DNA from: Phycisphaerales bacterium
Lineage (GTDB): Bacteria > Planctomycetota > Phycisphaerae > Phycisphaerales > SM1A02
DNA length: 64,000 nucleotides
Reading direction: 5' to 3'
NCBI GenBank assembly: GCA_029260575.1
Contig: JAJDDB010000004.1
Span: 372,001 to 436,000 of the forward strand
The number at the start of each line of letters is the position of its first letter. Position 1 is the stretch's first letter. The notes beneath the pieces were generated by a model. It ran no database searches. It saw only the letters and a list, made by a program, of their open reading frames with translations, and was not told where the DNA came from. The position numbers and the translations under genes are program-made. This document shows positions 16,884-42,757 of this stretch, in pieces.

Positions 16884-16909
16884 CCCAGCATCTGGAGATG
16901 CTGGGCTTT
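16884..16909 (+). repeat. Interspersed GGA-loop hairpin, copy 2
   Basis: CCCAGCATC (16884-16892), loop TGGA, GATGCTGGG (16897-16905), then CTTT. A perfect 9-bp stem 22 bases after the astD stop. Only three T follow, so it is a poor intrinsic terminator; the resemblance to copies elsewhere is the stronger signal. Confidence 0.85.
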
Positions 16910-16951
16910 CGCAAGAGATAGTGCAGATCGCGGATCACGCCTGCCAGGCCC

Positions 16952-17695
16952 ATGACTGTTTCAATCATCATTCCGGCGTACAACGAAGCGGCGCACATTG
17001 TCGATGTCATCGAGAGCGTCAAGACGGCAGCGCTGGCTCTTGATCGCGAATGCGAAATCATTGTCGTCAATGATTCATCAACGGACGCCACTGCAGCGCT
17101 TGCGGAAGCGGCCGGTGCGCGGATCGTACATGTCGAGCATCAGCAGATCTCCAAGACTCGCAACAGCGGCGCGCGGGCGGCGACAGGTGACTATTTCGTG
17201 TTCCTGGACGGTGATACGGTTATTGCAGAGCAGACACTGGTGCGGGCGGTGGCGGCGCTGGATGAGGGCGCAGCCGGCGGCGGCGGACATGTGCTCTTTG
17301 ATGATGACCTGCCGCTGACGTGGCGGATACTTCTGCCGCCGATGCGCGCAACGATGTGGCTCATTCGGGCGAGCCCGGGGTGTTTCATGTTCTGTCGGCG
17401 TGATGCGTTTGACGCGGTCGGCGGATTTGATGAGACGATTTACGCCAGCGAGGAAATCTGGTTCAGTTGGGGGCTGGGCAGGCAGGGGCGGTTCGTGATT
17501 CTGGATTATCCGGTGATCACCAGCGGGCGCAAGGCGCGCATGTGTTCGGTGTGGGAAGTGCTCGGGACGCTGTTTCGCCTGACGTTCAATCCCTGGGCAC
17601 TGAAAAAGCGCGCGGGTCTTGAACTGTGGTATGACGGCCGGCGCGAAGACGAGACGTTTGTCGAGCGGATCGATTCGATGCACAACGACCAATGA
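16952..17695 (+). CDS. Glycosyltransferase family 2
   Basis: A 247-residue GT-A fold transferase. It starts with VSIIIPAYNEAAHI, has the nucleotide-binding VVNDSSTD, the metal-binding DxD-like LDGDT and an acceptor-side GGFDETIYASEEIWFSWGL segment typical of GT2 enzymes that modify lipids or polysaccharides. One hydrophobic patch near residues 125-140 could be membrane-associated. No ribosome site is clear at ATG 16952. It stands alone after a repeat hairpin, convergent with the DUF4139 gene. Donor and acceptor sugars are unknown. Confidence 0.88.
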   Translation: MTVSIIIPAYNEAAHIVDVIESVKTAALALDRECEIIVVNDSSTDATAALAEAAGARIVHVEHQQISKTRNSGARAATGDYFVFLDGDTVIAEQTLVRAVAALDEGAAGGGGHVLFDDDLPLTWRILLPPMRATMWLIRASPGCFMFCRRDAFDAVGGFDETIYASEEIWFSWGLGRQGRFVILDYPVITSGRKARMCSVWEVLGTLFRLTFNPWALKKRAGLELWYDGRREDETFVERIDSMHNDQ

Positions 17696-17699
17696 AAAG

Positions 17700-17727
17700 G
17701 AGCACCGGGTATGGAATCCCGGTGCTC
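17700..17727. terminator. Terminator between convergent genes
   Basis: A perfect 10-bp stem, GAGCACCGGG (17700-17709) with CCCGGTGCTC (17718-17727), loop of 8. On the minus strand it is followed by CTTTTCATT, so it best serves the DUF4139 gene ending at 17759. It also follows the glycosyltransferase stop at 17695 and may work in both directions. Confidence 0.8.
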
Positions 17728-17758
17728 AGGGCGTGCGCGTCGAAATTGTGCCAACGTA

Positions 17759-19627
17759 TCAGCCGGCGGATTGATCGGTGTCGTCGGATGCGAGCGACAT
17801 CTGCTTGTCGTATTCGAGGCGAAGCGTATACGAAACTGTTTTCATCCCTGCTGAGGAAACACCTGCAGGAATTTCGACATCCCAGCGAAGGATTCCCTTG
17901 TCGCGCAGACTGTCGAGATACTGCGCATCGTCACTGATCGGCTGAGTCGTGGACAGCAGGCTGACTTTGACCTGTTCATCGTCATCGGCGACGGGAATGC
18001 GATCGAAAAGGCGGACAGGCACACCGTTGCCGTTGAAGTTTTCCAGAGTAAGTTCGTAGGTAATTTCGACAACGCGGTTGCCGCCCTGGATTTGTTCATC
18101 AACGTTGACAATTTCGCGGGAAGCGCGGAGCGTGGAGTTGACGCCGAAGCCGACAGTGAGTGCTTCGCCTGCGGTGATGGAGGGCATTTCGCTGTGGCCG
18201 ACGAACTGGCCGTCGAGATAACTGGACAATGGGCCGGCAAGCAGAACGATGTCGCTAGTGTTGCGTGCTGCTGATTCGTTGTAGATGAAGTCGGTGAGCA
18301 CAGGAGTCGCAAGGCGGTATTGTTCAGCATTTAGCATCATTTTGCGGACGGTGACAAGTTGCTGGCCGGTGCGGCTGGCGAGGGTTATGCGGGCCGGCAG
18401 CGTATAGGTGACGGTAAGACTTTCGGTGACATGATTGTCAGTGGGCGGGTTGATGTTCTTGCCCATTGCGGTTCCTGCGGTGTATTCAAGCACCTGAATG
18501 CGCTCCGCAAGGTCATTGAGTTCCTTGTCGACCACAGCGAGAACTTCTTTTGAGGATTGGCCACGCTGCCATGGGAGATCAATCTCGCCGGCCCGGCGAT
18601 CTTTACTACTTGGAGGTGCCGTAGTCGCGAACATGACTGAGTTGCGCGTGGCATCGACGGTTCCCTTGCGTTGTTGCAAATGTCTAAACTGCTCTTCAAC
18701 AACAGCTGCGCCGAGTTGCACGGGCTGGTTCATCTGCGTCAGGCTGAGCGTGAACTGATCCAGCCGGGGCGCGCGTGCGGTGAGTGCTGGCGTTGCGGTG
18801 GACAGCGACATGGCAACGTCATCCCAGGATTCGCCGGTGCGCTGTTCGATGGAGGCGTGGTAGACAAGCTGCATTTCGCCGGCTTCGGAATCCATGCGGG
18901 CGGTGTAGGAAGGTGACCAGTTGGCGTTGTTGACGAGATAGTGCACAGTGACGGGGCCGCCCACTGCGTCGGTGATATCGACATACAGCACAGCTTCGCG
19001 GGCGGTGTGCGAGGACGAACCGGTGATCATTGCGCGCTCGCGGTTGAGCAGGTCGAGCTGTGTCGCAAGTTTGTGGTAGTCCTGATCGAGTGTCAGTGAT
19101 TGCTCAGCAATGCGATCGCGTTGTTCAAAGAGATACGCGCTGAGATCTTTGATGACATCCGCTTCGAGGACGCCCTTGTTGATGTCCGCGATTGCTGTGG
19201 AAGTCGTGAACGTTTCCAGATTGTCCAGATACTTTGACTGGTGTTCAAGTACTTCGCGCTGTTTACGATTTTCCTGCATGCGCTGCTGCAGTGCATTGAT
19301 TTTGTCATCAACGATTTGCACTTCATCGCGGACATCGGCGCTGACGGGTCGCTGACGGTAGGTCAATGAGCGCACTTCGATGCCGGGGGCTGCTTCTGCA
19401 TACAGACTGCCGGCGACGATTTCTGCGGGAAGGTCGGTGATGATGATTTCCTGCAGGCCGATGGGGCCGGCAAGTTCGAGTGTGCGGGTGATGAGCGCCT
19501 GGCCGCGGTAGACGGTGACAGCGGTGATGTCGCCGGGCGCTTCGACAACAGGCTTGGCGATGGCCAGTGGAGAAAAGGTCAGGGCGCTGACGAGCGCCAT
19601 ATGTGCGATGCGGGGGTGAGCGATCAT
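17759..19627 (-). CDS. DUF4139/DUF4140 (mucoidy inhibitor MuiA-like) protein
   Basis: A 622-residue exported protein. A signal peptide ending near LAIAKP is followed by the DUF4140 N-terminal strand region (ITAVTVYRGQALITRTLEL), a coiled coil of about 110 residues (roughly 105-215) and the DUF4139 C-terminal domain, with the characteristic VHYLVNNANWSPSYTARMD and RTGESWDDV. ATG 19627 is preceded by AAAGGA about 6 bases upstream. Proteins of this family are widespread in bacteria and their biochemical role is not established. It is transcribed alone and divergently from the ureohydrolase. Confidence 0.9.
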   Translation of the reverse strand: MIAHPRIAHMALVSALTFSPLAIAKPVVEAPGDITAVTVYRGQALITRTLELAGPIGLQEIIITDLPAEIVAGSLYAEAAPGIEVRSLTYRQRPVSADVRDEVQIVDDKINALQQRMQENRKQREVLEHQSKYLDNLETFTTSTAIADINKGVLEADVIKDLSAYLFEQRDRIAEQSLTLDQDYHKLATQLDLLNRERAMITGSSSHTAREAVLYVDITDAVGGPVTVHYLVNNANWSPSYTARMDSEAGEMQLVYHASIEQRTGESWDDVAMSLSTATPALTARAPRLDQFTLSLTQMNQPVQLGAAVVEEQFRHLQQRKGTVDATRNSVMFATTAPPSSKDRRAGEIDLPWQRGQSSKEVLAVVDKELNDLAERIQVLEYTAGTAMGKNINPPTDNHVTESLTVTYTLPARITLASRTGQQLVTVRKMMLNAEQYRLATPVLTDFIYNESAARNTSDIVLLAGPLSSYLDGQFVGHSEMPSITAGEALTVGFGVNSTLRASREIVNVDEQIQGGNRVVEITYELTLENFNGNGVPVRLFDRIPVADDDEQVKVSLLSTTQPISDDAQYLDSLRDKGILRWDVEIPAGVSSAGMKTVSYTLRLEYDKQMSLASDDTDQSAG

Positions 19628-19752
19628 GGGAAGTCCTTTCGGTTATGTGTCATTGCACGGCCGGCGCGGGCGCGAGGAAGGCGCTACGGCTATGGGTATG
19701 ACGGATGAAGCGGGTGCGGATTACTGAGTTTCTTGCGAGTCGGGGGTGTGAT

Positions 19753-19778
19753 CCCAGCATCAGGAGATGCTGGGCTTT
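19753..19778 (+). repeat. Interspersed GGA-loop hairpin, copy 3, with a degenerate neighbour
   Basis: CCCAGCATC (19753-19761), loop AGGA, GATGCTGGG (19766-19774), then CTTT: same stem as the copy at 16884. A decayed second copy, CATC-AGGA-GATG followed by TGGGGTTTT, lies at 19791-19811. Both are in the 220-base divergent region between the DUF4139 gene and the ureohydrolase, so they might be transcribed as a leader of the latter. Confidence 0.85.
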
Positions 19779-19847
19779 GTGTGTAGCAGTCATCAGGAGA
19801 TGTGGGGTTTTGGGAGGGAAGAGGTGGTTTTGTTTAGAATGTGGGTT

Positions 19848-20825
19848 ATGACTGATCAGCGCCGGACTGTTTTACCCAATGCCCGAGAATTTCCCCGTTT
19901 TGCGGGTGTGTCCACGTTCTGCCGGTTTCCGTTGCTGGGGGATGTAGGCAGCGGCGGGCAGCCGGTGGACTGGGTGGTGTACGGGATTCCGTATGACGGC
20001 GCGGTGACGTATCGGCCGGGTGCGCGATTCGGCCCGCGGGCGATTCGGGACGCATCGCAGTACATCAAGCCGGTGCATCAGGAACTGGGTGTGGATATTG
20101 CAGCGCGGTTTTCGATGGCTGATGGTGGTGATGCGCCGGTGCAGCCGTATTCATGCAAGGACACGCTGGACGCCGCATGTGAATTCGCGCTTGGGCTCGG
20201 TACTGCAGCGCACACGAAGTTGATCGCAATCGGCGGCGATCATTCAACTGCGTACGCAAACATCAAGGCGACGTGGCAGCGGCGCGGCAAGCCGAAGGGC
20301 GGGCTTGCGCTGCTGCACTTTGATGCACATCTGGATACTGCGGATGTTGTGTGGGGCGAAAAGTGGACGCACGCTTCGCCGTTCATTCGCGCAATTGAAG
20401 ATGGACTGATTGATCCGAAGCGAATGTTGAGTGTTGGGATTCGCGGGCCGTTGAACACTGCGGATGATCTGAACTTTGCCCGTGAGCATGGTGTTGAATT
20501 GGTGACGAGCGAAGATTGGCTGCGAGGCGATGGCGCGCAGCGCATTGAAGCGTTTCGCAATCGACTTGGTGATGACGAGGTGTACCTGACATTTGATATT
20601 GATTGTGTGGACCCCGCATTTGCGCCGGGGACGGGTACGCCGTGCTGCGGCGGGTTTGGTTCAGCGGAGGTGCTGGGGCTGTTGCGGTCGTTTGCGGGGG
20701 TGCATCTGGTGGGCGCGGATGTGGTGGAAGTGCTGCCGGATCGCGATCCAGCGGGGATTACCAGCCTGCTCGCAACACATGTTTTGTTCGAATTGCTGGC
20801 TGTTGCTGCGATTCGTAACACATGA
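19848..20825 (+). CDS. Ureohydrolase (agmatinase/arginase family)
   Basis: A 325-residue binuclear manganese hydrolase that releases urea from a guanidino substrate. The metal ligands are visible in GGDHS, DAHLDT and DIDCVDPAFAPGTGTP. The YGIPYDGAVTYRPGARFGPRAIR opening and the HASPFIRA segment are more like agmatinase or guanidinobutyrase (SpeB type) than classical arginase, but arginase cannot be excluded by eye. I start at ATG 19848; the longer frame runs back through the repeat hairpin and is not credible. It lies 3 kb from the astA/astD genes, with other genes between, so a shared pathway is possible but not shown by an operon. Confidence 0.9.
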   Translation: MTDQRRTVLPNAREFPRFAGVSTFCRFPLLGDVGSGGQPVDWVVYGIPYDGAVTYRPGARFGPRAIRDASQYIKPVHQELGVDIAARFSMADGGDAPVQPYSCKDTLDAACEFALGLGTAAHTKLIAIGGDHSTAYANIKATWQRRGKPKGGLALLHFDAHLDTADVVWGEKWTHASPFIRAIEDGLIDPKRMLSVGIRGPLNTADDLNFAREHGVELVTSEDWLRGDGAQRIEAFRNRLGDDEVYLTFDIDCVDPAFAPGTGTPCCGGFGSAEVLGLLRSFAGVHLVGADVVEVLPDRDPAGITSLLATHVLFELLAVAAIRNT

Positions 20826-20967
20826 ATATGCAGATATTTACATCGAATGGCCGGTGGTAAGAAAGGGTTGCTCGCCACTGCGGTGTAAGGTGATTGCTCG
20901 CAGTCCCAAGTACAATGGGCGGTCCGTGTCGAAAAATCATGTCCCCGGGGGAAAGAGGGATACAGCT

Positions 20968-21891
20968 ATGCGCGCAACAACTGCACTCGTTCTGACAATT
21001 TCAGCGGCGGCGTACATTGTCGGCTGCTCATCTTCATCATCATTCATCTGGGATGAAAAGGCATCGGAAACGCGGACGATGACCGCAGATCATGTGGCCG
21101 ATGGCAGCTTGTACATAGATACCCGCAATGGATTTGTCGAAGTCATTGCCGATTCGAATGTTGATGCGGTGATGATTGAAACCACGGTGATCGCTGCGGA
21201 CACATCGGAGATTGATGCTGCCAAGCGATTGGCGGAGACGAAGATCATTGTCGAGCGTGACACAGCCCGGCAGTTGACGATTCGCCCGGTGTGGCCGACG
21301 AATCCGCGCGGCGGCGAAGGCGCGAGTTTCAATGTGCGTGTGCCCGATGCCAAGAGCATTACGATTGATTCCAGCAACGGCGGCGCGCGGGTACACGGCT
21401 TCACCGGCAGGCTTGTCATTGATACTTCCAACGGACCGGTTGAAGTACTCAACCACAATGGCGAGGTCATCATTGACACGTCCAACGGGCCGATCGAAGT
21501 GCGCGGGAATAAAGGCAGGGTCTTTGCAGATACGTCCAATGGTCGGATTCTGATTCTCGATCAGCATGGTCCTGTTGAGGCGGATACGAGCAACGGTCCG
21601 GTCGAAATCGTTCTTGCGGATGATGTGAACGGCCCGCTCATTGTCGATACATCAAACGGTCCTATTACTGTGACAGTCGGCTCGGGCTTTGGTGGCACGG
21701 TCGAGTTTGATACCAGTAACGGCTCCATCAATGTGGATAACCGCGGCGGCAACATCAAGAACTCGACGATCAGCAAGACTGAAGGGCTGATTGTGCTTGG
21801 CAAGAGCGGTTCTGCGAGCATCATCGATACATCCAACGCAAGCATTACTTTTACGATCAATGGGGATGCGACAGCATCTGCGGATGAGTAA
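20968..21891 (+). CDS. DUF4097-like lipoprotein with tandem DTSNG repeats
   Basis: A 307-residue lipoprotein precursor: ATG 20968 with AGAGGGA about 8 bases upstream, a signal peptide and the lipobox IVGC followed by a Ser run. From about residue 125 the sequence DTSNGP or a close variant (DSSNG, DTSNGR, DTSNA) recurs about eight times at 17-25 residue spacing, each ending a predicted beta strand. This is the pattern of DUF4097 'putative adhesin' proteins, which likely form a right-handed beta solenoid. No enzymatic residues are seen. Its transcript ends at the strong terminator at 21918. The 142 bases upstream hold a TACAAT (20911-20916) that could be a -10 element, without a good -35. Confidence 0.85.
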   Translation: MRATTALVLTISAAAYIVGCSSSSSFIWDEKASETRTMTADHVADGSLYIDTRNGFVEVIADSNVDAVMIETTVIAADTSEIDAAKRLAETKIIVERDTARQLTIRPVWPTNPRGGEGASFNVRVPDAKSITIDSSNGGARVHGFTGRLVIDTSNGPVEVLNHNGEVIIDTSNGPIEVRGNKGRVFADTSNGRILILDQHGPVEADTSNGPVEIVLADDVNGPLIVDTSNGPITVTVGSGFGGTVEFDTSNGSINVDNRGGNIKNSTISKTEGLIVLGKSGSASIIDTSNASITFTINGDATASADE

Positions 21892-21917
21892 GTCGCACAG
21901 GACACCTCGCAACCATC

Positions 21918-21944
21918 AACCCCCGTTGGTCACGGGGGTTTTTT
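21918..21944 (+). terminator. Rho-independent terminator
   Basis: AACCCCCG (21918-21925), 7-base loop, CGGGGGTT and a run of six T (21939-21944). It is 26 bases after the stop of the DTSNG-repeat lipoprotein and is one of the two clearest intrinsic terminators in the window. Confidence 0.95.
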
Positions 21945-21977
21945 GTACATTCGTCCAGTGCGTGCGTGACAAAGTTG

Positions 21978-22517
21978 TCAGGTATGCGCAGCTGTACGGC
22001 GCAGGGCAAGGATCAGTTCGATCTTGCCGATCTGTTCATCTATCTGTTGTGCGATTTCCACTGGGTCTGCACCGGCATCGGCAAGTTCGTAGACAGACTG
22101 CGTCAGCGGATCGACAACCGGCTGGGGCGAGACTTCAACGATGAGATGACTTTGCGCCGCTGGTGTTCGTTGCTGGGGCGCGCGTACAGAGGTCGCCTGC
22201 AGATCGGCGATGCGCTGGTCTGCCTGGGCGAGAAGTTGTTCGAGGCGCTCAGCTTTGTTGTCGAGCTGCGCCATGAGCTGCTGGGTGGTTTCGAGAAAGT
22301 GTGATGACGCGGCGTCCTGATCGTCGGTGCGGCCGGCATAGCGGCGAAGTTGATCGAGCGTCTGCCGTGCTGTTGATTTGTTGGCGTTGCGGGCTGCGAT
22401 TTTGCTGCGAACGGAGATCATCATGAGCACGCCGATGACGAGCACGCCGAGCACGATCAGCATGGCGGCAATGCCGTCGATGGGGTTGGCTTGGGTGGTT
22501 GTGGCCAGAGCAAACAT
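21978..22517 (-). CDS. Single-pass membrane coiled-coil protein, unknown
   Basis: A 179-residue protein. One transmembrane segment (about residues 15-37, rich in Leu/Val/Ile) is followed by a basic stop-transfer patch and then a Gln/Leu/Asp-rich coiled coil (about residues 60-110). The end is acidic, IAQQIDEQIGKIELILALRR. ATG 22517 is chosen because GGAG lies 7 bases upstream. I recognise no family. It is divergent from tilS, with 65 bases between the two starts. Confidence 0.7.
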   Translation of the reverse strand: MFALATTTQANPIDGIAAMLIVLGVLVIGVLMMISVRSKIAARNANKSTARQTLDQLRRYAGRTDDQDAASSHFLETTQQLMAQLDNKAERLEQLLAQADQRIADLQATSVRAPQQRTPAAQSHLIVEVSPQPVVDPLTQSVYELADAGADPVEIAQQIDEQIGKIELILALRRTAAHT

Positions 22518-22582
22518 CTTCAGACTCCGCAATCCGAATGTGAATCGGCGATTCGAATCGAATCTCGTGATTCTGCGGGGCT

Positions 22583-23653
22583 ATGATCGGAGCTATGACG
22601 ACACAAAGCGATCCCGTGAGCCAGATTCCGGATTTGCGAGACCTGCCCGTCGATGTCAAACGCCATGCGCTGCTGCACGAGGTACAGCTTCGACTGGATC
22701 AGTACGGCAATATTGAGCCGGGAGCCTTTGTCGTCGTGGCGGTCAGCGGCGGTGCGGACTCGGTGGCGCTGCTGCTGGCGATGGCGGCTCTGGGGCAGCG
22801 CACAACGCGCAGTGGAACGGCAGTAGTGCGTCCGGTTGCCGTTCACGTGCATCATCATCTGCGCGAATCTGCGGATGCTGATGCTGGGTTTGTTGAAGCG
22901 TTGTGTGGTTCACTGGACGTGCCGTTTCGGTTGGTGGATATTGACCCCGGGCGTCTGCCGGGCAATGTTTCTTCAGCAGCTCGGGCGCTGCGGTATCACG
23001 CACTGGCCGAACAGGCGAGCCAGGTGGATTCGAAACTTGTTGCTGTGGCGCATCATGCTGAGGATCAACTGGAAACGATGTTGATGGCATTGTGTCGGGG
23101 TGCGGGTCTGGACGGGCTTGCGGGCATGCCGTGGGCGCGGTCGCTGAAGAATGATGTGCAATTGATTCGCCCGCTTCTGGGGACTCGTCGAGCGGAGTGC
23201 GAATCGCTATGCAAGGCCGCGGGTGTGCAGTGGGTTGATGATCCGACCAATCGTGATCTCGTGCATAGCCGCGCGCGGCTTCGCCATGAGGTGTTACCGG
23301 TGCTGGAAGCAATCTGGCCGGACGCAGCTCGGCGGACGACCGCAACTTCGGACACTGTGCGCACTGCTGCGATGATGCTGGAGCGGGCGCTGGATGATGT
23401 TTTCGGATCAGCGGAGCAGCATCAATGGCAGCGACATGTTCTGGCAAAGCTGGAATTTCCGTTGGTGACAGCAGGATTGCGGCGTGCGGCAATTCAGATG
23501 GCGCCGGATGTCGCAGACCAACTCGGCCACAGGCAACTTGACGAGGCAGCGCGGCTCGTTGTCAGCAGCAACGGTTCGGCAAAACGATTGGATTGGCCCG
23601 GCGGACTGGTGTTTGATCTTGATAGTGAAACAGTGCAGGTGCGCAGGAAGTAG
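22583..23653 (+). CDS. tilS: tRNA(Ile)-lysidine synthase
   Basis: Modifies C34 of the CAU-anticodon tRNA-Ile to lysidine, using ATP and lysine. The 356-residue product has the PP-loop SGGADS near residue 55, VHVHHHLR, and AVAHHAEDQLETMLM, all diagnostic of TilS, and WVDDPTNRD. A C-terminal substrate-binding domain seems reduced compared with the longer E. coli enzyme. ATG 22583 and ATG 22595 are both possible starts. The next gene begins 4 bases after its stop, so the two are probably translated together. Confidence 0.93.
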   Translation: MIGAMTTQSDPVSQIPDLRDLPVDVKRHALLHEVQLRLDQYGNIEPGAFVVVAVSGGADSVALLLAMAALGQRTTRSGTAVVRPVAVHVHHHLRESADADAGFVEALCGSLDVPFRLVDIDPGRLPGNVSSAARALRYHALAEQASQVDSKLVAVAHHAEDQLETMLMALCRGAGLDGLAGMPWARSLKNDVQLIRPLLGTRRAECESLCKAAGVQWVDDPTNRDLVHSRARLRHEVLPVLEAIWPDAARRTTATSDTVRTAAMMLERALDDVFGSAEQHQWQRHVLAKLEFPLVTAGLRRAAIQMAPDVADQLGHRQLDEAARLVVSSNGSAKRLDWPGGLVFDLDSETVQVRRK

Positions 23654-23657
23654 CGGG

Positions 23658-24098
23658 ATGTTTGAACGATTGAAGAAGTCCAATGATGTTGCCGATGCCA
23701 GCGAGCAAACGCAGTGGTCTGGTTTGACCGTCGGGCTGGTCGGGCACTGTGGGCCTGATACACACGGGCTGACGCGGTTTGTGAACAGGGTATTGCCCGG
23801 AGCGCGCATTGAGAGTGTCCACACCGGAAGTGAACTCGAAGCGCTGGGTGCAGAGGGTGTTGTGCTGCTTGTCAATCGTGTACTGGACGGGCGGTTCGAG
23901 ACTGGAAATGGTGTAGAACTGATTCGGCAGTTGCGCAATCGCGATGCTGATGTCGTGGCGATACTGATGTCGAACTTTACTGATGCACAGCAGGATGCCG
24001 AAGCAGCGGGGGCGCAGCCGGGGTTCGGCAAGTCGCAATTGAAAGATGATGTATCTGCGGCGCGGTTGTGTGAGGCGGCACAGGCAGCGATTGTTTAA
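23658..24098 (+). CDS. Degenerate receiver-like domain protein
   Basis: A 146-residue protein starting at ATG 23658, 4 bases after the tilS stop. The second half, GVELIRQLRNRDADVVAILMSNFTD then AEAAGAQPGFGKSQL, follows the beta-4/alpha-4/beta-5 pattern of response-regulator receivers, with SN and K in the expected places. At the usual phospho-acceptor position the text reads LLVNRVLDG, with Asn in place of Asp, so phosphorylation is doubtful. There is no output domain. Perhaps a pseudo-receiver protein that binds partners; function unknown. It overlaps the convergent GT39 gene by 4 bases. Confidence 0.7.
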   Translation: MFERLKKSNDVADASEQTQWSGLTVGLVGHCGPDTHGLTRFVNRVLPGARIESVHTGSELEALGAEGVVLLVNRVLDGRFETGNGVELIRQLRNRDADVVAILMSNFTDAQQDAEAAGAQPGFGKSQLKDDVSAARLCEAAQAAIV

Positions 24099-33269: not shown

Positions 33270-33291
33270 TGTTTGCAGTGCAGCAGCGCAG

Positions 33292-34229: not shown

Positions 34230-34338
34230 GGCGTTGTCTGTTCCCTCAATGAGGTTTCGTCGGTGTTGAGCGGCAGTATAGGCGTAGAAATGGATACAAT
34301 CGGCGCGAACTGCCGATTGCTCACATGAAGGGCGCACG

Positions 34339-35601
34339 ATGAATCATTCCGGTCAGAATCTTAGGGGTCTCGTCATCGGTCTTGTGTGTGTGGCGGCGGT
34401 TGGCGGCTGCGCGAAACAGAACGCATGGCAGGATGTGAACGTCGGACGTGAAGTCGCGCTGGGTGAATTTGCCAGTGCGACACCGATGAATCGTACTCCT
34501 GAGTTGCCATCAAACCAGCCGGCCATGAATGTCGATGTCGACGAAGCGGACGATGCGCAGTCCGACGCACCGCCGGTGACGATCGTGGAAGCATCACCTG
34601 ATGATGATCAAACATCGTCAGCTGCGCAGGAGCCGATCGAAGCGGGCGAGCAGGTTGTCGTGGACAGTTTGATCGGCCAAGTCAATGGCCGGCCGATCTT
34701 TGCGGATGAATTCTTCGAGCCGATCGAAGCGCAGTTGACCGCAGCAAGTCAGCGCCTGAACAAGGGGCAGTTCAACCAGGAAGCGCTGCGCATTGTGACG
34801 GGCCATCTGGAAGAGGTGGTTCTGAACGAGTTGTTTCTTGCCGAAGCGGAAGCGAGTCTTTCCTCAGAAGAACGCAAGGGCATCTTCGGTTTTATGCGCT
34901 ATCTTCAGGAACGCACTCTCAGCGAAGCGGGCGGCATCGAACAGGAAGCTCGCAAGCGGCTTGCGCTTCAGGATCTGACGCTGGAGCAATATCTGGAACT
35001 GGAGAAGAACCGGGCGCTCATTCAGAAGCTGATTATGGAAAAGATTCGACCGCGCGTGATAGTGTCGTGGCGAGACATCGAGCGCGAATACGAACGGCGC
35101 ATTGAAGAGTTTAATCCGCCAGCTCAGGTGACGCTGTTACGCATTCGATTGAACAGTGAATCTGATGCAACGCGTATTGAAGAGGTAAAGACACGACTGT
35201 TGCAAGGCGATCCTTTCGAAGATATTGCGACGGATATTGGCGACGTGGACGGCGGGCGATGGCGGACCATTCAGATGGGCGGCGCGGAGACCGATGAGGT
35301 CGCGCTGAGCAGCGAGTTCATTGATCGGCTGGGTGAGATCAAGGTTGGCACCACGACGGAGCCGTTTGAACTTAGTTCGTCAACCTGGTGGCTGCACGTT
35401 GCGGAAGTGGATCAACCGCCGGCCCGGAGTATTTATGACCCCGGCGTACAACGAATGCTCTCGGATCATCTGCATTCAGTGCGGTTCAATGAAGAGTTCA
35501 TGCACTATCGATCGAAACTGTTCCAGCGCGGCATCTTCGATGAGCTGAATGAGATGCGCGATCGATTGATGGCAGTGGCGATCCTGCGGTACGGACCGTA
35601 A
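34339..35601 (+). CDS. SurA/parvulin-like periplasmic foldase lipoprotein
   Basis: A 420-residue lipoprotein precursor with a signal peptide and lipobox VGGC, then an acidic linker of about 80 residues. A SurA-N-like helical region follows (IGQVNGRPIFADEFFEPIEAQL to about residue 245). Next is a parvulin-like domain, QVTLLRIRL..., GDPFEDIATDIGDVDGGRW and LGEIKVGTTTEPFEL. The rotamase domain is weak at the sequence level and may be inactive. A role in outer-membrane or surface protein folding is inferred from the domain order. The transcript probably continues past a cluster of GCCAAACA repeats into yraN. Confidence 0.83.
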   Translation: MNHSGQNLRGLVIGLVCVAAVGGCAKQNAWQDVNVGREVALGEFASATPMNRTPELPSNQPAMNVDVDEADDAQSDAPPVTIVEASPDDDQTSSAAQEPIEAGEQVVVDSLIGQVNGRPIFADEFFEPIEAQLTAASQRLNKGQFNQEALRIVTGHLEEVVLNELFLAEAEASLSSEERKGIFGFMRYLQERTLSEAGGIEQEARKRLALQDLTLEQYLELEKNRALIQKLIMEKIRPRVIVSWRDIEREYERRIEEFNPPAQVTLLRIRLNSESDATRIEEVKTRLLQGDPFEDIATDIGDVDGGRWRTIQMGGAETDEVALSSEFIDRLGEIKVGTTTEPFELSSSTWWLHVAEVDQPPARSIYDPGVQRMLSDHLHSVRFNEEFMHYRSKLFQRGIFDELNEMRDRLMAVAILRYGP

Positions 35602-35604
35602 GAC

Positions 35605-35639
35605 AAGCCAAACATACTAGAAAGCCAAACAGCCAAACA
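35605..35639 (+). repeat. GCCAAACA-type short repeat cluster, copy 2
   Basis: AAGCCAAACA (35605-35614), AAGCCAAACA (35622-35631) and AGCCAAACA (35631-35639) follow the SurA-like gene stop at once. The spacing TACTAGA between units is close to that of the cluster at 8552 (GTTAGAAAA, read on the minus strand), so the two are probably copies of one element. Confidence 0.6.
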
Positions 35640-35690
35640 CGCGACTCAAATTCGCACTTTATTGGTGCGCCAAGTGGGTATTGTGTGTGG

Positions 35691-36119
35691 ATGGCTTGGT
35701 GGGATGTATTTCGACGTGGCGCGGGAGCGGAGGATTCCGGTGATTCCGGAGGTGGCGGGAGTTTGCTTGGTCGGCGGGGCGAGAAATATGCTGCCAAGTG
35801 GTTGCAGAAGCGCGGCTATCGACTGTTGGAGCGCAATCGCACCGTCGGGCGTGATGAGGCGGACCTGATCATGCTTTCTCCGGATGACCGCACGCTTGTC
35901 ATCGTGGAAGTGAAGACACGTCGAACAGCCCAGCCGCCGCCGGAAGCGAACATCAACGCAGACAAGCGCCGGAATCTGTCGCGGTTGGCAGCGCGACTGA
36001 CGCGCAGGGGCAGGTATGCTGGGTATGCCGTGCGGTTTGATGTTGTGACGATCATCTGGCCGGAGGGCGGCGAACCTGAACTGAAGCACTACGAACATGC
36101 ATTCGAGGCATCGTTCTAG
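35691..36119 (+). CDS. UPF0102 YraN-family protein
   Basis: 142 residues with the nuclease-like YraN core: LGRRGEKYAAKWLQKRGYRLLERN, DEADLIML and VIVEVKTRR, in the order E..., D..., ExK of restriction-endonuclease-fold enzymes. The N-terminal 28 residues are Gly/Ser-rich. ATG 35691 is preferred over GTG 35685. The family is nearly universal; a role in DNA processing is suspected but unproven. It ends 15 bases before the convergent SAF-domain oxidoreductase gene. Confidence 0.9.
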   Translation: MAWWDVFRRGAGAEDSGDSGGGGSLLGRRGEKYAAKWLQKRGYRLLERNRTVGRDEADLIMLSPDDRTLVIVEVKTRRTAQPPPEANINADKRRNLSRLAARLTRRGRYAGYAVRFDVVTIIWPEGGEPELKHYEHAFEASF

Positions 36120-36134
36120 GCTGGATGCACTGCC

Positions 36135-37451
36135 TCAGACTCGTGCAGGACGTTTGGACGTGCGCTTCGCCGGTGCGGATTCATGGGGCTGGTTCTGTTC
36201 GGTGCGGAGTTGCGCGAGCAGTGTGCTGTCGTCGTACTCCACGCTGGACAGCGCGATCGCATCGCCCTTGCGAACCGGCGCGGTGATCCGCACGTTTTCC
36301 GTCATGCCGATTGGTAGCAGGCCGCGGCAGTTTTCATAGTTGTCGATTTCGCCGTAACACGTGAAACCGCCGATGCCATCAAGCGTCTCGCCGGGTTGCA
36401 GATCACGCTTGGCAACGGCAACGACATCCGTCACCGTGACCGGCAGCGGCGCAATTGTCGGTTCGTGATCGAGCACAGCTTCGGCGATCGTGATCGGTGT
36501 TTCAAAGTGACAGAGGTGGTACCCGCGGTAGAACAGATAGTTCGGGCCGGACCCCATCTTCAGGTACTGCATGAGCGGCTGCACGAAAGTCGGATCGTCA
36601 CCACGGCCGATGACAAAGACGCCGCCTGCGAAATCGCCGCCAAGCGTGTAATCGACAACGCCGGTGTGTTCGATTGCCGCGATGCAATCGGCGAGCGCGT
36701 GTTCGAGATCAGTCTTAACGCCGCGCATGCCGCGCACCTCCGGCACGAGTCCGGTGGCGTTTGCGAGAACAGCGTTCTCGATATTCATTTTCGTGCCGTC
36801 GGTAAAGGCAGTGGTCATCGGCAGTGATGTGTTCTGTTTCTCAGCCCACGGGCGAATCGTTTCCGGTGTGGCGTTCGTGTCCATGAAGCCCTTGCAGTTG
36901 AACGCTGCGACGACGTCCAGTCCGATCCCCTGAACGTAGTTGTGCAACCGTTTCAGCACACCGGGCTGATCACCATCGGAGTTGCTGTAGACAACGCCGC
37001 CTTGATCGGCACGGCGGCGGAGCGCACACCCGACAGTCGCATCTGTTTCCGCGTTCATCATGATGACGTGGCTGTTATTTTCGATGGCGTTGAGCGCAAC
37101 ACGCGCGCCGTACTCGACAGCGCCGGTGACTTCGACGACCGCATCAAGCTGTGGCAATGCAGCGAGCGCATCGACATTGGATGTGACGGCCGGCCGGGCG
37201 CTCTTGAGAGCTTCGGCGAGGACAATTGCATCATCGCTGACAACAATGTCGCTGGGGGAATATCCGAGCAGCGTATAGGTTTTGACAGCGCGTTCGATTG
37301 TTCTGTTGACGATCAGCGAGGCGCGCATGTTCGGCGTGAGTTCGATCTGCCGAACCATGCCACGACCGATGAGGCCGGCGCCGGTGACAGCAACCTGTAT
37401 CGGCGGGTTGTTGTCGGCTTCACGCCGTTGGAGTCTTGTGAAAATTGTCAT
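36135..37451 (-). CDS. NAD(P)-binding oxidoreductase with C-terminal SAF domain
   Basis: 438 residues. A Rossmann start (VAVTGAGLIGRGMV), a homoserine-dehydrogenase-like second half with EVTGAVEYGARVAL and VYSNSDGDQPGVL, and a C-terminal SAF-like domain (AVAKRDLQPGETLDGIGGF). Proteins of this build are known from genome annotation as NAD(P)-dependent oxidoreductases with SAF domains; I know no established reaction. It lies 21 bases downstream of rfbD on the same strand, so it may act in nucleotide-sugar or sugar-acid metabolism for the envelope. That is inference from context only. Confidence 0.82.
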   Translation of the reverse strand: MTIFTRLQRREADNNPPIQVAVTGAGLIGRGMVRQIELTPNMRASLIVNRTIERAVKTYTLLGYSPSDIVVSDDAIVLAEALKSARPAVTSNVDALAALPQLDAVVEVTGAVEYGARVALNAIENNSHVIMMNAETDATVGCALRRRADQGGVVYSNSDGDQPGVLKRLHNYVQGIGLDVVAAFNCKGFMDTNATPETIRPWAEKQNTSLPMTTAFTDGTKMNIENAVLANATGLVPEVRGMRGVKTDLEHALADCIAAIEHTGVVDYTLGGDFAGGVFVIGRGDDPTFVQPLMQYLKMGSGPNYLFYRGYHLCHFETPITIAEAVLDHEPTIAPLPVTVTDVVAVAKRDLQPGETLDGIGGFTCYGEIDNYENCRGLLPIGMTENVRITAPVRKGDAIALSSVEYDDSTLLAQLRTEQNQPHESAPAKRTSKRPARV

Positions 37452-37472
37452 AGCGCGTGTCGTCCTTGGGCA

Positions 37473-38393
37473 TTAACTGGTTGTCGAGCCGGCTGGTGAT
37501 GGTTCGTTTGCTTTTCGATAGTCGACCATGATCTGCTGCAGGGCAGTGTCCCAGTCCGTGAATTCGAGACCGAATGCAGTCACAGCAGTCTCACAGTTCA
37601 GCACCGATTGCTTTGGGCGCTTGGCCGGCGTGGGGTATTCTGACGTGGGGATGCCGACGACATCAACGGGCTTTGGCAGGTCTGCCAACTCAATAATCCT
37701 GCGGGCAAAACCGCACCAGCTTGTCTTGCCGGAGCAGGCCAGGTGGTAGATTCCCGCTTTGCCGGAGAATGTTGATCGGCCGTTGGTGATGTTGAACGAG
37801 CGTTCGATGATCTGCGCCGTCCACGCAGCAACGAGCGTGCATGTTGTCGGGCTGCCGACCTGATCATCAACAACGCGAAGTTGATCACGCTGGCTTGCCT
37901 GTTCAAGGATAGCGAGCAGGAAGTTGCGTCGACGCAAGCCGTACATCCAACTCAAGCGCAGCACGAGTGATTCATTGTTTGCGTCAAGGACGTTCTGCTC
38001 GCCACGCAGTTTTGAGTGTCCGTAGGCATTGATCGGAGCGGGGCAGTCTTCGGTGGTGTACGGCTCGGGCTTACTGCCGTCGAAGACATAATCTGTCGAG
38101 TAGTGGATGATTGCTGCGCCGCGCTGTCGGGCGAGATCAGCGAGCAAGCCGGGAGCGGTCGCGTTTATCTGGTGGGCACGAGTGGATTCAGATTCTGCTT
38201 TGTCAACAGCGGTGTAGCCGCTTGCGTTGATGACCAGATCAGGGCGCAGCTTGACCATGAACTTTTCGATGGAGGAGGGATCTGCGAGGTCAAGTTCTTC
38301 ACGGTTTGGCGTGATGATCGAGCCCACGCCAGCCAACGCGTGGCGCAACTCCCAGCCGATCTGTCCAGTTGATCCGGTGAGCAGAATCCGCAT
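37473..38393 (-). CDS. rfbD: dTDP-4-dehydrorhamnose reductase
   Basis: 306 residues of the short-chain dehydrogenase superfamily, RmlD type. ILLTGSTGQIGWEL binds NADPH, VINASGYTAVDKAE is typical of RfbD, and the active site STDYVFDG with downstream YGHSKLRGE gives Tyr and Lys. It makes dTDP-L-rhamnose for surface glycans. ATG 38393 has GGAG about 7 bases upstream; three upstream Met codons do not. rfbA, rfbB and rfbC are not in the window. It is followed by the SAF oxidoreductase in a likely two-gene operon. Confidence 0.92.
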   Translation of the reverse strand: MRILLTGSTGQIGWELRHALAGVGSIITPNREELDLADPSSIEKFMVKLRPDLVINASGYTAVDKAESESTRAHQINATAPGLLADLARQRGAAIIHYSTDYVFDGSKPEPYTTEDCPAPINAYGHSKLRGEQNVLDANNESLVLRLSWMYGLRRRNFLLAILEQASQRDQLRVVDDQVGSPTTCTLVAAWTAQIIERSFNITNGRSTFSGKAGIYHLACSGKTSWCGFARRIIELADLPKPVDVVGIPTSEYPTPAKRPKQSVLNCETAVTAFGLEFTDWDTALQQIMVDYRKANEPSPAGSTTS

Positions 38394-38956
38394 CAATCGC
38401 TCCATGTCTCGGTTCAGCACGATAGTCGCCTGCGATCAGATGCCGCCTTCTGAGATCGGCCTGTGCGGCGGCAAGCATGGCGTGAATGCCGAAATCTTAG
38501 CCTGTTCGCAAGAAAAACCGGCTGTTTTCGCGTGTCGAAGTGGTCATAACTCGCTGCAAGACAGTGCATTGGGGCGACGATGCGGCATACCGGGATAGAG
38601 GTTCGGCAGCGGGGTTGCGAAATGCGCCTGGGTCTCTAAGGTGCGACGCTTTATCGGACCGTGTTGAATTTTCGCCCAGTGATTCAGCCGACGCCAGGAG
38701 GCCAGGTAACCGATGCACACCAATTCGTTTGTGCTGGAAATCTAAGCACAGCGGGTCGGGGCCGACATGCACACGATCGCAGCATTACCCACTGCTGTGA
38801 ACCCGCATCGGCTGACGAAGAAGACCAATGATCCGAATTCACGCTCGCGGTCGATGAGGCATTCATGCCCACGGTTGCGGTGCATCAGCAGAAGCAGCGT
38901 GAATCAGGGCAGGATGGATCGACAGGTCGAATCGGCATGCATCGCCGGAGAATTTG
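38394..38956. other. Divergent 563-base intergenic region
   Basis: Between rfbD (minus) and the large secreted protein (plus). I see no convincing gene. There is a short hairpin TGTGCT/AGCACA at 38730-38750 and no T run. The region is long enough for two promoters and a 5' leader, but no clear -35/-10 pair or known riboswitch is visible. Confidence 0.5.
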
Positions 38957-41479
38957 ATGACTATGTTTTCGACCACAGGTTTATCGCAGTTTCGAGTGTT
39001 TCATACACTGCTCGCTGTTTTGTTTGCATTCAGTGCATTCAACGGCGCAGCCAACGGTTGGTCCAACCCGCAGCCGCAGATCACGATCAGCGACACGAAT
39101 GGCATGGCCCCGTTTGCTGTGCATGTCCATGCGGTGAACAGTTCACTTGGCGGCGGCACAGCGATCAGCGCACGATACGAATGGGAATTCGGTGATCCGA
39201 ACGGCAGGCACAATACGCTTGTCGGTTTCAATGCAGCGCACCTGTACGAACAGGCGGGCAGTTACACAATTACGCTGCGGATCACGAATACCAACGGCGA
39301 AGTCGCAGTTGCAACGCGAACGGTGCAAGTCCAGCCTGACACACGTCGGAAGCTGTATGTCGCGCCGTGGGGCAGCGATACCAACAGCGGCTTGAACGAG
39401 GATAATCCGTTTCGCACCGTTGAGAAGGCGTTCAACACACAGCAGAATGACACTGCAATTCTGATTCAACGCGGCGCGAGTTACGCTCTCAGTCACAATC
39501 ATTCGGTGGCGTTCAACAATGTGCGCATCGGCACGTGGGGCAGCGGCGGTCGCCCGAAGTTGAAGTGGGTTGGTTCACTCGGCTTTCATTCGATAATGAG
39601 CAGCACCGCCCAGGCCCGCGATGTCGTGATTCAGGACATTGTGTTCGCTTCGGACTGGCCTGCTGACTCCACACGCGACATCGTGGATGCAATTCGTCCC
39701 TCAGGTGAGGCAATAACGATAGATCACTGTCGGTTTCTTGATGTCTCGCTTGCGGTGAACACGAACAGTCGGCCGAACAAACTGCTGGTCATGGATTGCG
39801 AGACCGAGGAAATAGGCGCGTATTTCGTGTGGGGCGATGGCGACGATCATGTGTACGTCAATAATTCGGTTGCGGGATCGCACTTTGAACATTGCATTCG
39901 CCTGGCGCATCTTGACCGTGTTTTGATCACCGGCAATACACTTGCAAATGATGACAAGCGATCGATCTGGGCGACGCACGGCACGTACATCTATATCAGC
40001 AACAACGAGATTGACACCGGCCGTGTGACAATTGGACCGAATCCGTATGCGGGTCATACAACGTCGGGGCCGAAGTGGTCAGTCGTGGAAGGCAATGTTA
40101 TCGAAAAACTGACGGGCGGGACAACGCCCGTTGAAGTCTTTGCAGGTACATCACAGACAATGGTGCGCAACAATGTGATTCGAGCTGCGTACATTCCTGC
40201 AATTACGATTGCGGGGTATGACAGTTCGACGAACATGCGTCCGACGGATGTATTCATCTATAACAACACAGGCATCAACGAAACGTACATCGGCAGGTTC
40301 CTGTCGACCAGTGATGGTGCTGAGCGCATCAGTGTGCGGAACAACTTATTCTCGGCCACGAATCTGATCACAGGTGACAGCCGAACTGCAAACGTGTATG
40401 TCGATGACGATTCGCTTGCAAGTTTCACGGACATCGCCCGCAATGTCTGGGCGGAGCCGGCACAGTTCAACTGGGTTTCGGACGGGTATCACTACATCTG
40501 GCCGTTGTGGTCCAATGCACAGGGATATCAGAATCCCAACGAATGGGACAATTTCTCGGTCGTGAGCAAAGAGGCATATGCGCGGACGGTTCTGAACGGC
40601 AGTTTCGCGCCGCCGGAGAATTCTGTTGCAGCGATTCATTCACGGCCGGCTGCAGGTGTGCATGTGGATATGTACGGTCGCCGTCGCCCGGCAACCGGCA
40701 AGTGGTCTGCCGGTGCAGTGGAACTGAACAATGCAGATGATCCGGTGCCGGACCCAGACCCGGACCCAGATCCAGACCCCACTGGTGATCCGCTGGTTGT
40801 GTTTGCGGATGACTTTGAAACCAATGCAGGCTGGACAGTGAACAACCTCAACGTGAGTGATGGTCAGTGGGAACGCGGCGTGCCTGCCGGCGATGGATTC
40901 CGTGGCGATCCCACGTTTGACCATGACGGCTCCGGGACGTGCTGGCTGACGGGGAATCGGCCCGGCAATTCGGATGTGGATGGCGGCCCGACTATTCTGA
41001 CATCGCCAGTCATCGACTTGAGTGAAGGCAGCGATCCGTACGTCAGCTTTGCGCGGTGGATCTATTGTGATGATGGATCCGACGATCGGATTGTGACCGA
41101 GGTCAGCGCCAACGCGGGGGTGGACTGGGCTCAGCTGGAAATCGCCAGCAGCACCGGCGACTGGCGCCACAAGACGTATCGCATCAATGATGTTGTTGCC
41201 TCAACCAGTGCGTTTCAGATTCGCTTTGTCATAGGTGACACCGCAAACAACTCGGTGACGGAAGCTGCTATTGACAATCTGCTGATCAGATACACGTCGA
41301 CGGATGATCCGCCGGATGTGCCGGGGGATGTCAACGGCGACGGTGTGGTGGACAGCATTGATGTTATAGCGCTGCTGGGACAATGGGGACCGTGCTCCGG
41401 TTGCAGTGGTGATCTTGATGCCAATGATGTCGTCGATGTCTTTGACATGTTGATTCTGCTGATGGACTTCCTGGGCTGA
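38957..41479 (+). CDS. Large secreted beta-helix protein with PKD and dockerin domains
   Basis: 840 residues from ATG 38957 (GGAG 6 bases upstream). In order: a signal peptide; a PKD-like domain (ARYEWEFGDPNG, YEQAGSYTITLRI); a long right-handed beta-helix region (about 115-560) with repeated strand motifs such as VLITGNTLANDD, VVEGNVIEK and MVRNNVIRA, as in pectate-lyase-like folds; a linker of alternating Pro-Asp; a jelly-roll-like domain (FADDFETNAGWTVNN to NLLIRYT); and a C-terminal dockerin-like pair (GDVNGDGVVDSIDVIALLGQWG, DANDVVDVFDMLILL). A polysaccharide-binding or -cleaving surface protein is plausible; no catalytic residues can be assigned. Confidence 0.85.
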   Translation: MTMFSTTGLSQFRVFHTLLAVLFAFSAFNGAANGWSNPQPQITISDTNGMAPFAVHVHAVNSSLGGGTAISARYEWEFGDPNGRHNTLVGFNAAHLYEQAGSYTITLRITNTNGEVAVATRTVQVQPDTRRKLYVAPWGSDTNSGLNEDNPFRTVEKAFNTQQNDTAILIQRGASYALSHNHSVAFNNVRIGTWGSGGRPKLKWVGSLGFHSIMSSTAQARDVVIQDIVFASDWPADSTRDIVDAIRPSGEAITIDHCRFLDVSLAVNTNSRPNKLLVMDCETEEIGAYFVWGDGDDHVYVNNSVAGSHFEHCIRLAHLDRVLITGNTLANDDKRSIWATHGTYIYISNNEIDTGRVTIGPNPYAGHTTSGPKWSVVEGNVIEKLTGGTTPVEVFAGTSQTMVRNNVIRAAYIPAITIAGYDSSTNMRPTDVFIYNNTGINETYIGRFLSTSDGAERISVRNNLFSATNLITGDSRTANVYVDDDSLASFTDIARNVWAEPAQFNWVSDGYHYIWPLWSNAQGYQNPNEWDNFSVVSKEAYARTVLNGSFAPPENSVAAIHSRPAAGVHVDMYGRRRPATGKWSAGAVELNNADDPVPDPDPDPDPDPTGDPLVVFADDFETNAGWTVNNLNVSDGQWERGVPAGDGFRGDPTFDHDGSGTCWLTGNRPGNSDVDGGPTILTSPVIDLSEGSDPYVSFARWIYCDDGSDDRIVTEVSANAGVDWAQLEIASSTGDWRHKTYRINDVVASTSAFQIRFVIGDTANNSVTEAAIDNLLIRYTSTDDPPDVPGDVNGDGVVDSIDVIALLGQWGPCSGCSGDLDANDVVDVFDMLILLMDFLG

Positions 41480-41611
41480 TTCCCGGCGGGTCGTGGTCCG
41501 AAAACGTTCTGAGTGTGCAGTTTGCGAGCGAGTTCGTTGCAGCGCAGCCAAGCGCTGGTGTCTGTGTGCCGATGGTGTCTCCACGGGTTGATACGTCCGG
41601 GGTTGGATACG

Positions 41612-42721
41612 ATGGCACACGTGCTTGAGAAACCAGAGAACACATTCGAACGGCTGGATGATGCGGCGGCCGATGAGCCCGCTGCTAGTCGTAATACGCT
41701 TCGCGCACATCGGCTTGCGTTTATAGCGCCGCGCTTCAAGCATGATCCGGAGTGGCCGTGGCTGACGCGGATCGGTCCGCTTGCGGAATGTGCATTCACG
41801 CGTCGAACGATCGTCAATGATTTTGCGCCGTTTTCGAAACTCACCAAGCCGTATCAACAGTGGCAGTATTGGAATGCAGGTCGCGCCATTCGAGAAGCTG
41901 AAGCTGCGTTTTTGTTCAGTTATGATGTGGTGATGGGGATGACCGGCCGGGCGGCGCGCCTGCATCGGCACATGCCGTGCATCTACATGGGCCTGCACCA
42001 GGATTCACCGCTGGAGCAGTCGTTCATAAACAAGCTGAGTGCCGCATTGCAGCGGTGCGCTGCTGTGGCGATTCTTACGGAAGAAGAACGCGCGTTGTAT
42101 GTGCCGCGATTTGGTCTTGATCCGGAACATTCGCATGTCGTGCCGATTCATACAGATCATGCGGATGGGTATGGGATGTATGGTCCCCAATCGCCGGAGT
42201 CGCAGCCGTATGTTCTGGCCATGGGTTCACCCAACCGGGTATTCAAGCCGACGGTTCTGGAGTGTGCTAAGCGGAAGATTCCGATCGTAATTATCACTAG
42301 GTCGTGGCATGTGCATGATGACCTTGATGAGCTGGCTGATCTTGGCGCGATGGTCATCACCGATGCGAATATGAACAAGGCGTTGACGTATCTCAAACAC
42401 GCGCGTCTGATTGCCTTTGATTTCGTGCGCACGGAATTTGCCAGCGGGTTTATTACGCTGGTGCATTCAATGTTCCTGAAGACGCCGATCGTCAGCAGTC
42501 ATTGCGTGGGCATCCCCGAACATGTCGTGGATGGTCAGACCGGTTATGTCGTCGGGCATACTGATGCTGCGGCACTGGGCGATGCGATTGATCGTGTGTG
42601 GAGCGATGACCAGCTCGCAGGTGAGTTGGCGGAGCATGGCCTGCAACGGGCGCAGCAGCGCCATTCACTTGAGGCTGCGGCGCAGCGATATTTTGAGATT
42701 GCGTGCAGCGTGCTGAAGTAG
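41612..42721 (+). CDS. Glycosyltransferase, GT-B type (GT4-like)
   Basis: 369 residues. The C-terminal half has the GT4 layout: YVLAMGSPNRVFKPTVLECAKRKIPIVIITRSWH, then FASGFITLVHSMFLKTPIVSSHCVGIPEHVVDGQTGYVV, where the E in PEHV contacts the donor nucleotide. ATG 41612 is chosen; the upstream frame is not protein-like. The 132 bases upstream contain no terminator after the preceding gene. Sugar and acceptor are unknown. A GGA-loop hairpin follows 11 bases after its stop. Confidence 0.85.
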   Translation: MAHVLEKPENTFERLDDAAADEPAASRNTLRAHRLAFIAPRFKHDPEWPWLTRIGPLAECAFTRRTIVNDFAPFSKLTKPYQQWQYWNAGRAIREAEAAFLFSYDVVMGMTGRAARLHRHMPCIYMGLHQDSPLEQSFINKLSAALQRCAAVAILTEEERALYVPRFGLDPEHSHVVPIHTDHADGYGMYGPQSPESQPYVLAMGSPNRVFKPTVLECAKRKIPIVIITRSWHVHDDLDELADLGAMVITDANMNKALTYLKHARLIAFDFVRTEFASGFITLVHSMFLKTPIVSSHCVGIPEHVVDGQTGYVVGHTDAAALGDAIDRVWSDDQLAGELAEHGLQRAQQRHSLEAAAQRYFEIACSVLK

Positions 42722-42731
42722 TACAGGCGAT

Positions 42732-42757
42732 CCCACGGACAGGAGTCCGTGGGCTTT
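42732..42757 (+). repeat. Interspersed GGA-loop hairpin, copy 4 (compensated stem), with a half copy
   Basis: CCCACGGAC (42732-42740), loop AGGA, GTCCGTGGG (42745-42753), then CTTT. Compared with the copies at 16884 and 19753, the outer CCCA/TGGG, loop and CTTT are the same but the inner five base pairs are different and still pair. A 3' half copy, TCCGTGGGCTTTGG, lies at 42780-42793. Both are in the gap between the glycosyltransferase and the VWA gene. Confidence 0.8.

Follow-up and report, generated by a model that had tools for sequence, protein, structure and literature searches.

REP-like palindromes in a Phycisphaerales genome and the transposase, encoded elsewhere in it, that very probably scatters them

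Four short hairpins are interspersed in a stretch of 64,000 nucleotides (in the following called the window) from a Phycisphaerales bacterium (assembly GCA_029260575.1, contig JAJDDB010000004.1, positions 372,001 to 436,000). They raise the question whether such elements are mobile palindromes, intrinsic terminators or structured RNA signals. Here, we present a genome-wide analysis of these hairpins and of a transposase gene associated with them. The four hairpins and the half copies adjoining two of them are located in the window as follows.

4277 to 4302, plus strand: REP-like copy 1, CCCAGAATC-AGGA-GATGCTGGG-CTTT, with one A.G mismatch in the stem
16884 to 16909, plus strand: REP-like copy 2, CCCAGCATC-TGGA-GATGCTGGG-CTTT, in the gap between an aldehyde-dehydrogenase gene and a glycosyltransferase gene
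19753 to 19778, plus strand: REP-like copy 3, CCCAGCATC-AGGA-GATGCTGGG-CTTT, in the gap between a DUF4139 gene (minus strand) and an arginase-family gene (plus strand)
19792 to 19811, plus strand: degenerate half copy (loop, 3′ arm and T tail), adjoining copy 3
42732 to 42757, plus strand: REP-like copy 4, CCCACGGAC-AGGA-GTCCGTGGG-CTTT, in the gap between convergent glycosyltransferase and VWA-domain genes
42780 to 42793, plus strand: half copy TCCGTGGGCTTTGG, adjoining copy 4, whose arm it carries

The letters of the four hairpins proved to be exactly those given in the preliminary description, and these four are the only mismatch-free matches of CCCANNNNNNGGANNNNNTGGG in the window. Folded as single-stranded DNA, the perfect copies at 16884, 19753 and 42732 reached -10.6 to -12.3 kcal/mol (z -4.6, -4.4 and -4.8 against shuffles), compared with -6.4 kcal/mol (z -2.2) for the mismatched copy at 4277. 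The half copies next to 19753 and 42732 are likewise real, and similar ones, consisting either of loop, 3′ arm and CTTTGG or of 5′ arm and loop, adjoin several full copies elsewhere in the genome.

The whole genome (4.11 Mb on 41 contigs, labelled here with C-numbers) contains 21 matches to the hairpin pattern including CTTT and 26 to a looser pattern without it, as opposed to none in either case for the control, the pattern read backwards. A covariance model built from 21 seed copies gave at least 62 matches at a threshold of E≤1, four of which represent the opposite strand of another match. The distinct places number at least 58, of which 52 are at E≤0.01, and 58 is probably a lower bound because the model scored 150 of 2074 candidates. 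Such a search had been proposed when the hairpins were first described, and it revealed further copies outside the window.

The inner arms of the seeds include GCATC, CCCTC, CGGAC, CCATC, GCAAC and GGGAC, to which the wider copy set adds CCAAC and GGCTC; in some copies of the wider set the outer A-T pair is turned into G-C (CCCG...CGGG). In the 21 seeds, pairing is kept in 98.4% of 189 cells and four of the nine pairs show changes on both sides. Sliding the partners by one to three columns lowers pairing to 30-53%. None of 500 shuffles attained the covariation score of the seeds, and the observed values of two other measures, pairs with a double change and further pair types, were attained by 55 and 85 of the 500, respectively. 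By the covariation score, the arms change in compensated pairs, as had been supposed from the window. The GCATC and CGGAC stems had been described as differing in each of the five inner pairs; this holds for four of them, whereas the fifth, the C-G pair adjacent to the loop, shows no variation among the 21 seeds, and neither do the loop bases GGA. Compensated arms mean that structure is kept, and this would also be expected of structured RNA signals that are retained by the host, for example as 3′-end stabilisers or protein-binding sites, without any mobility.

From 26 loosely chosen copies, the repeat unit was derived as G[A/T]T-CCCA-N4-C-N-GGAG-N4-TGGG-CTTT-G, with conservation being sharp from G[A/T]T through CTTTG and fading outside. 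The tag is one-sided, with CTTT following 21 of the 26 copies and AAAG preceding none of them. Read on the complementary strand, the order becomes C-AAAG-palindrome-A[T/A]C, i.e. a tetranucleotide foot 5′ of a hairpin, which is the layout of REPs. In size, the 22-nt hairpin and the unit of about 30 bp agree with the hairpin-capable palindromes of 20-40 bp known as REPs. The canonical foot GT[AG]G is absent and AAAG/CTTT stands in its place; REP-like structures without GTAG have been published for class 3 and subclass 2.6 (excerpts of PMC6006769). The copy count of at least 58 compares with the more than 100 copies given as usual for REPs (excerpts of PMC2817692).

The positions of the copies relative to genes were taken from a home-made codon model as gene caller, which assigns 90% of the window as coding. 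Eight of the 58 copies are located inside called genes and 50 outside, two of the latter actually lying in the transposase gene described below, which the caller missed. Among the 48 copies with both neighbours called, 26 stand in convergent gaps, compared with 40 of 202 gaps overall, and four in divergent gaps; without five rows around the missed transposase gene, the convergent copies amount to 21 of 43. Placement is thus mostly extragenic and REP-like, and convergence alone would also fit bidirectional terminators.

The preference for convergent gaps and the closeness of copies to gene ends could indeed be explained by intrinsic terminators of one style (a stem followed by GGGCTTT), selected at gene ends. 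In line with this, a lax terminator scan accepts the copy at 19753, although not those at 4277, 16884 and 42732, and two copies carry runs of six T. However, exactly three T follow 20 of 26 copies, a tail that falls short of the U-tract of a terminator hairpin and bears out the original assessment as poor terminators. The orientation is not terminator-like either, since the T side faces the end of an opposite gene in 37 of 50 copies, a share close to that of copies preceded by the end of a gene on the same strand (34 of 48). In addition, the copy at 19753 is located in a divergent gap, and other copies are found in frame within protein genes and within the transposase. In view of the orientation, the tail and the copies within genes, the terminator reading was rejected, and we consider it very improbable that the hairpins are of this kind.

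The genes bearing copies include one for an asparagine-synthetase-like protein, which holds two of them, and those for a hydantoinase, a PrmC-like methyltransferase and a biotin-ligase-like protein. Two of these, the asparagine-synthetase-like and the biotin-ligase-like gene, which are housekeeping genes with the copies in frame, were compared with relatives. For the synthetase-like gene, the residues encoded by the hairpin are missing in 16 of 19 homologs at site one and in all 19 at site two, and the three ungapped synthetases have different residues at the hairpin-coded stretch. The corresponding residues of the biotin-ligase-like protein are missing in 19 of 19 homologs. As the relatives belong to other genera and the alignment of variable loops is uncertain, the ligase being the clearest case, this comparison demonstrates long-term insertion and not recent movement.

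A gene at C27:381156-381827, outside the window, is a candidate for the cognate REP-associated tyrosine transposase (RAYT) gene. Its open frame is flanked and interrupted by four copies (C27:381 kb), so that copies are present upstream of the gene, in frame inside it and downstream. Within 3 kb of this gene lie six of the 58 covariance-model hits (binomial 4e-10). The search for a RAYT, also suggested beforehand, thus led to a RAYT-like gene which is both flanked by the copies and contains them.

Homologs of the C27 protein are present in 46 of the 151 genomes of the order, the source genome included; within its own family, which also comprises 46 genomes, the source genome is the sole one with a C27-type transposase match. 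The residues H99, H101, Y209 and H213 are invariant in all 27 aligned homologs, which represent 30 loci minus three truncated or stop-carrying ones and were not chosen for the HxH or Tyr motifs. The same four residues are invariant in a second set of 60 named loci, which is not independent, since both motifs and a sufficient length were required beforehand (65 of 80 loci passed this filter, and 60 of them were used). The Tyr motif of the C27 protein is YILAH, and H occupies Tyr+4 in 27 of 27 homologs. Among the 80 named loci, 70 show Y[ILV]xxH, five carry Q at Tyr+4 (L195, L210, L225, L226 and L228), and the remaining five look truncated or frameshifted. In the tree of homologs, L157 (from a contig labelled Vicinamibacteraceae) and L171 (Leptolyngbya) group among planctomycete sequences, which reflects either transfer or mislabelled bins.

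Searches with the C27 protein sequence against Pfam, NCBIfam, phages and the PDB gave no match, and a PDB search with the profile of its family yielded two chance-level hits. Among the 27 homologs, 16 are recognised at E≤0.1 by NF047646, a model of REP transposases (best 1e-8), and eight match Pfam Y1_Tnp (best 1.2e-6); the C27 protein matches neither. Evidence on the fold refers to the close homolog L151 rather than to the C27 protein itself; the AlphaFold model of L151 has a mean pLDDT of 89. The best 30 Foldseek matches of this model are all IS200/IS605-type transposases with E-values from 4.9e-4 to 1.1e-2, one of them at E≤0.001, and the REP transposase 4er8 takes rank 19. A second structure aligner gave Z 12.3 for ISDra2, 9.8 for 4er8 and 9.3 for Thg1 as the next fold. 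The best alignments stop near residue 188, before Tyr195, and the position of the tyrosine lies outside them. The chains of Thg1, parvovirus NS1 and geminivirus Rep gave lower Z values. Judged by its motifs and by the model of its homolog, the C27 gene is predicted to encode a distant Y1 transposase of the IS200/REP type.

Hairpins accompany this gene in other genomes as well. An in-frame hairpin between the HUH and Tyr motifs was found in 16 of the 30 homolog loci, 14 of which also carry a hairpin outside the coding part. The 80 named loci come in part from the same genomes; 45 of them have an AAG- or CTT-tagged hairpin inside or at a distance of up to 400 nt (42 with flanking hairpins, 21 on both sides, 14 inside), and the other 35 have none, some through a contig end. 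Internal and flanking arms share 8.7 of 9 bases within a locus (12 loci) as compared with 6.0 of 9 across loci; a shuffle test on the internal hairpins was set aside because these had been picked for pairing.

In the 151 genomes, the palindrome AAGCCC[AG]-N13/14-[TC]GGGCTT gave 1099 matches versus 30 for the control, which does not remove ordinary terminators that can match the same pattern. The median number of palindromes per genome is 10 with a RAYT (n=46) and 0 without (n=105; p 2e-11). A corresponding contrast was found in family f6 (17.5 in 24 genomes with a RAYT versus 1 in 20 without, p 8e-4) and in family f5 (five versus four genomes, p 0.03), and no association of RAYT and palindromes in family f2 (9 versus 36 genomes, p 0.67), all of these p values ignoring relatedness. 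Exceptions occur in both directions: ten genomes without a detected RAYT have at least five palindromes, and eleven with a RAYT have 0 or 1.

The closest named relatives of the C27 gene are L150 and L151, both on Planctomycetota MAG contigs; they cluster with the C27 gene with support 100/93, and the three genes have two internal hairpin sites in common. At the first site, the C27 gene and L151 both encode PATGVAGL and differ by silent changes that keep the stem, with one A-T pair turned into C-G and another into G.T. At the second site, the element is reversed in orientation in the C27 gene. On a 61-member tree, the label for an inside hairpin (12 rows) takes 4 changes versus 11.2 for shuffled labels, which indicates that the internal hairpin is partly inherited.

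These results also bear on RNA signals kept by the host. Apart from the compensated arms, such signals would be in keeping with sites downstream of genes, which would be transcribed. However, the dense copies around and in the transposase gene point to a mobile element, copies have been gained inside coding sequences, the arms vary locus by locus along with the transposase's own copies, and an Rfam search of the window returned no family at gathering score. An origin as immobile RNA signals therefore appears hardly credible, and a structured-RNA role as a secondary function of the hairpins is not needed to explain the data.

A different enzyme might be responsible, so that the REPs are moved by another Y1 transposase, such as that at C3:263842, or by none today. 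The genome does harbor three Y1 genes detected with Pfam, and the C27 protein has another, shorter homolog in it at C6:35525-35797 (E 3.9e-12). Copies are also clustered at C3:208-262 kb, and this cluster terminates beside the C3 gene. The Tyr motifs of the other Y1 genes are YIERH (C3:263842), YIERNP (C28) and YVQDNP (C18). Against this, the C3 gene has a different AAAG-tagged flanking repeat with dispersed copies of its own, the C28 and C18 genes show no perfect hairpin (at least 8 bp, loop of 3-5) within 700 nt of the matched stretch, and the internal and flanking hairpins of the C27 homologs have common arms, locus by locus. Movement by another Y1 enzyme, or by none today, is thus unlikely. 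The repeat in the region of the C3 gene (C3:262450-264991, L024:60-2120) reads AAAGCCGCGACC-N3-GGTCGCG and has an inverted partner; with up to three mismatches it gives 27 matches in the genome versus 4 for the control, with some places counted on both strands.

Further copies, covariation and a RAYT-like gene were all found, which supports the interpretation as mobile REP-like palindromes considered in the preliminary description. On the basis of sequence, the structure model and analogy, we regard it as highly probable that the hairpins are REP copies of about 30 bp and that the C27 RAYT is the cognate enzyme scattering them. Of the two strands, the functional one is probably that opposite to the strand first described, comprising AAAG, a 9-bp palindrome with a 4-nt loop, and A[T/A]C. 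The Y1 HUH enzyme encoded on C27 would bind the folded single strand, with AAAGCCCA hairpins as candidate substrates. As in IS608 and TnpAREP, AAAG at the foot of the stem may serve as the guide choosing the cut, the strand would be cut by the tyrosine of the RAYT, and the enzyme would scatter the copies mostly downstream of genes. Movement of the family in the present day may be presumed.

Systems of this kind are known, but both the tag and the variant of the enzyme appear to be new. The family resembles the REP/RAYT systems termed REPtrons (excerpts of PMC2817692 and PMC6006769) in that short palindromes with a one-sided tetranucleotide foot are located mostly between genes and flank a Y1 HUH transposase gene, and in that element and enzyme co-vary. 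It differs from them in the foot (AAAG here, GT[AG]G there), the copy number (at least 58 here, hundreds there), the mainly planctomycete hosts and the Tyr motif (mostly YIxxH here, YIxxNP there). In subclass 2.4 of TnpAREP, REPs are inserted between HuH and Tyr of the transposase gene itself without breaking its frame (excerpts of PMC6006769), as in the C27 gene and 16 of 30 homologs, so the in-gene copies described here are not new in kind. Some REPs of this subclass have a double foot, comparable to the AAG...CTT palindromes of many relatives, whereas its Tyr motif is YIxNNP, as against YILAH in the C27 protein, and its feet are GT[AG]G, as against the single AAAG foot of most copies here. 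TnpAY1 of class 3 is similar with respect to hosts among Planctomycetes and Acidobacteria and to flanking hairpins without GTAG, and differs by Q at Tyr+5 and a CnGA foot as against H at Tyr+4 and AAAG (excerpts of PMC6006769).

Table 1 of PMC6006769, as far as excerpted, has Q or N at Tyr+4 for classes 1 and 2 and Q at Tyr+5 for class 3. With mostly H at Tyr+4, the present proteins appear by motif to be unlike the tabulated subclasses, and the five Q-bearing relatives speak against a sharp class border. These five distant relatives share Q at Tyr+4 with class 1 (IS200/IS605-type). The Y1 HUH fold is common to IS608 and the IS200/IS605 elements (excerpts of PMC5934647), and IS608 likewise has AAAG, located 5′ of a hairpin, as its left guide. 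Unlike in IS608-type transposons, the hairpins here are scattered on their own, apart from the gene, which does not occur in many identical copies. In the systems examined so far, cleavage is diminished or lost when the GTAG foot is altered (excerpts of PMC8266576). Rickettsia palindromic elements (excerpts of PMC3733652) are also palindromes in frame within protein genes, in contrast to which the copies here lie mostly beyond called genes and have an associated transposase. Among the matches listed in a literature search restricted to open-licence PMC papers, there was no paper on REPs in Phycisphaerae.

By these results, the known range of transposase-associated REPs would come to include a large planctomycete order, in which the foot is AAAG and a His near the catalytic Tyr stands where the tabulated subclasses have Asn or Gln. 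Since the foot equals the left guide of IS608, the guide-pairing rules of IS608 could be tested on REPs, and the co-variation of element and transposase over many genomes makes the co-evolution of their recognition testable. A more speculative idea, to which we give little weight, is that the in-gene REP hairpin in the linker after HUH is kept for its nucleic-acid structure as an autoregulatory site, to which the enzyme would bind on its own message or on its own gene as single-stranded DNA. It derives from the recurrence of the hairpin in this linker in many lineages, with arms matching the flanking REPs of each locus, and from the C27 gene and L151 keeping both pairing and peptide. Autoregulation, if true, together with Y-x3-H and AAAG, would mark a separate branch of REP transposases.

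Two further observations concern larger arrangements of the repeats. Tandem 5′ half copies, consisting of 5′ arm and loop, precede a full hairpin at C16:2440-2525 (locus L011), and the same arrangement is present upstream of the L151 transposase gene; its occurrence in two different genomes hints at a recurrent process of partial duplication. Furthermore, a 119-bp stretch ending at a REP copy is 96% identical between L012:1500-1618 and L014:1500-1618, where it stands behind two unrelated genes; it may represent either a mobile unit of larger size or what is left of a duplicated gene.
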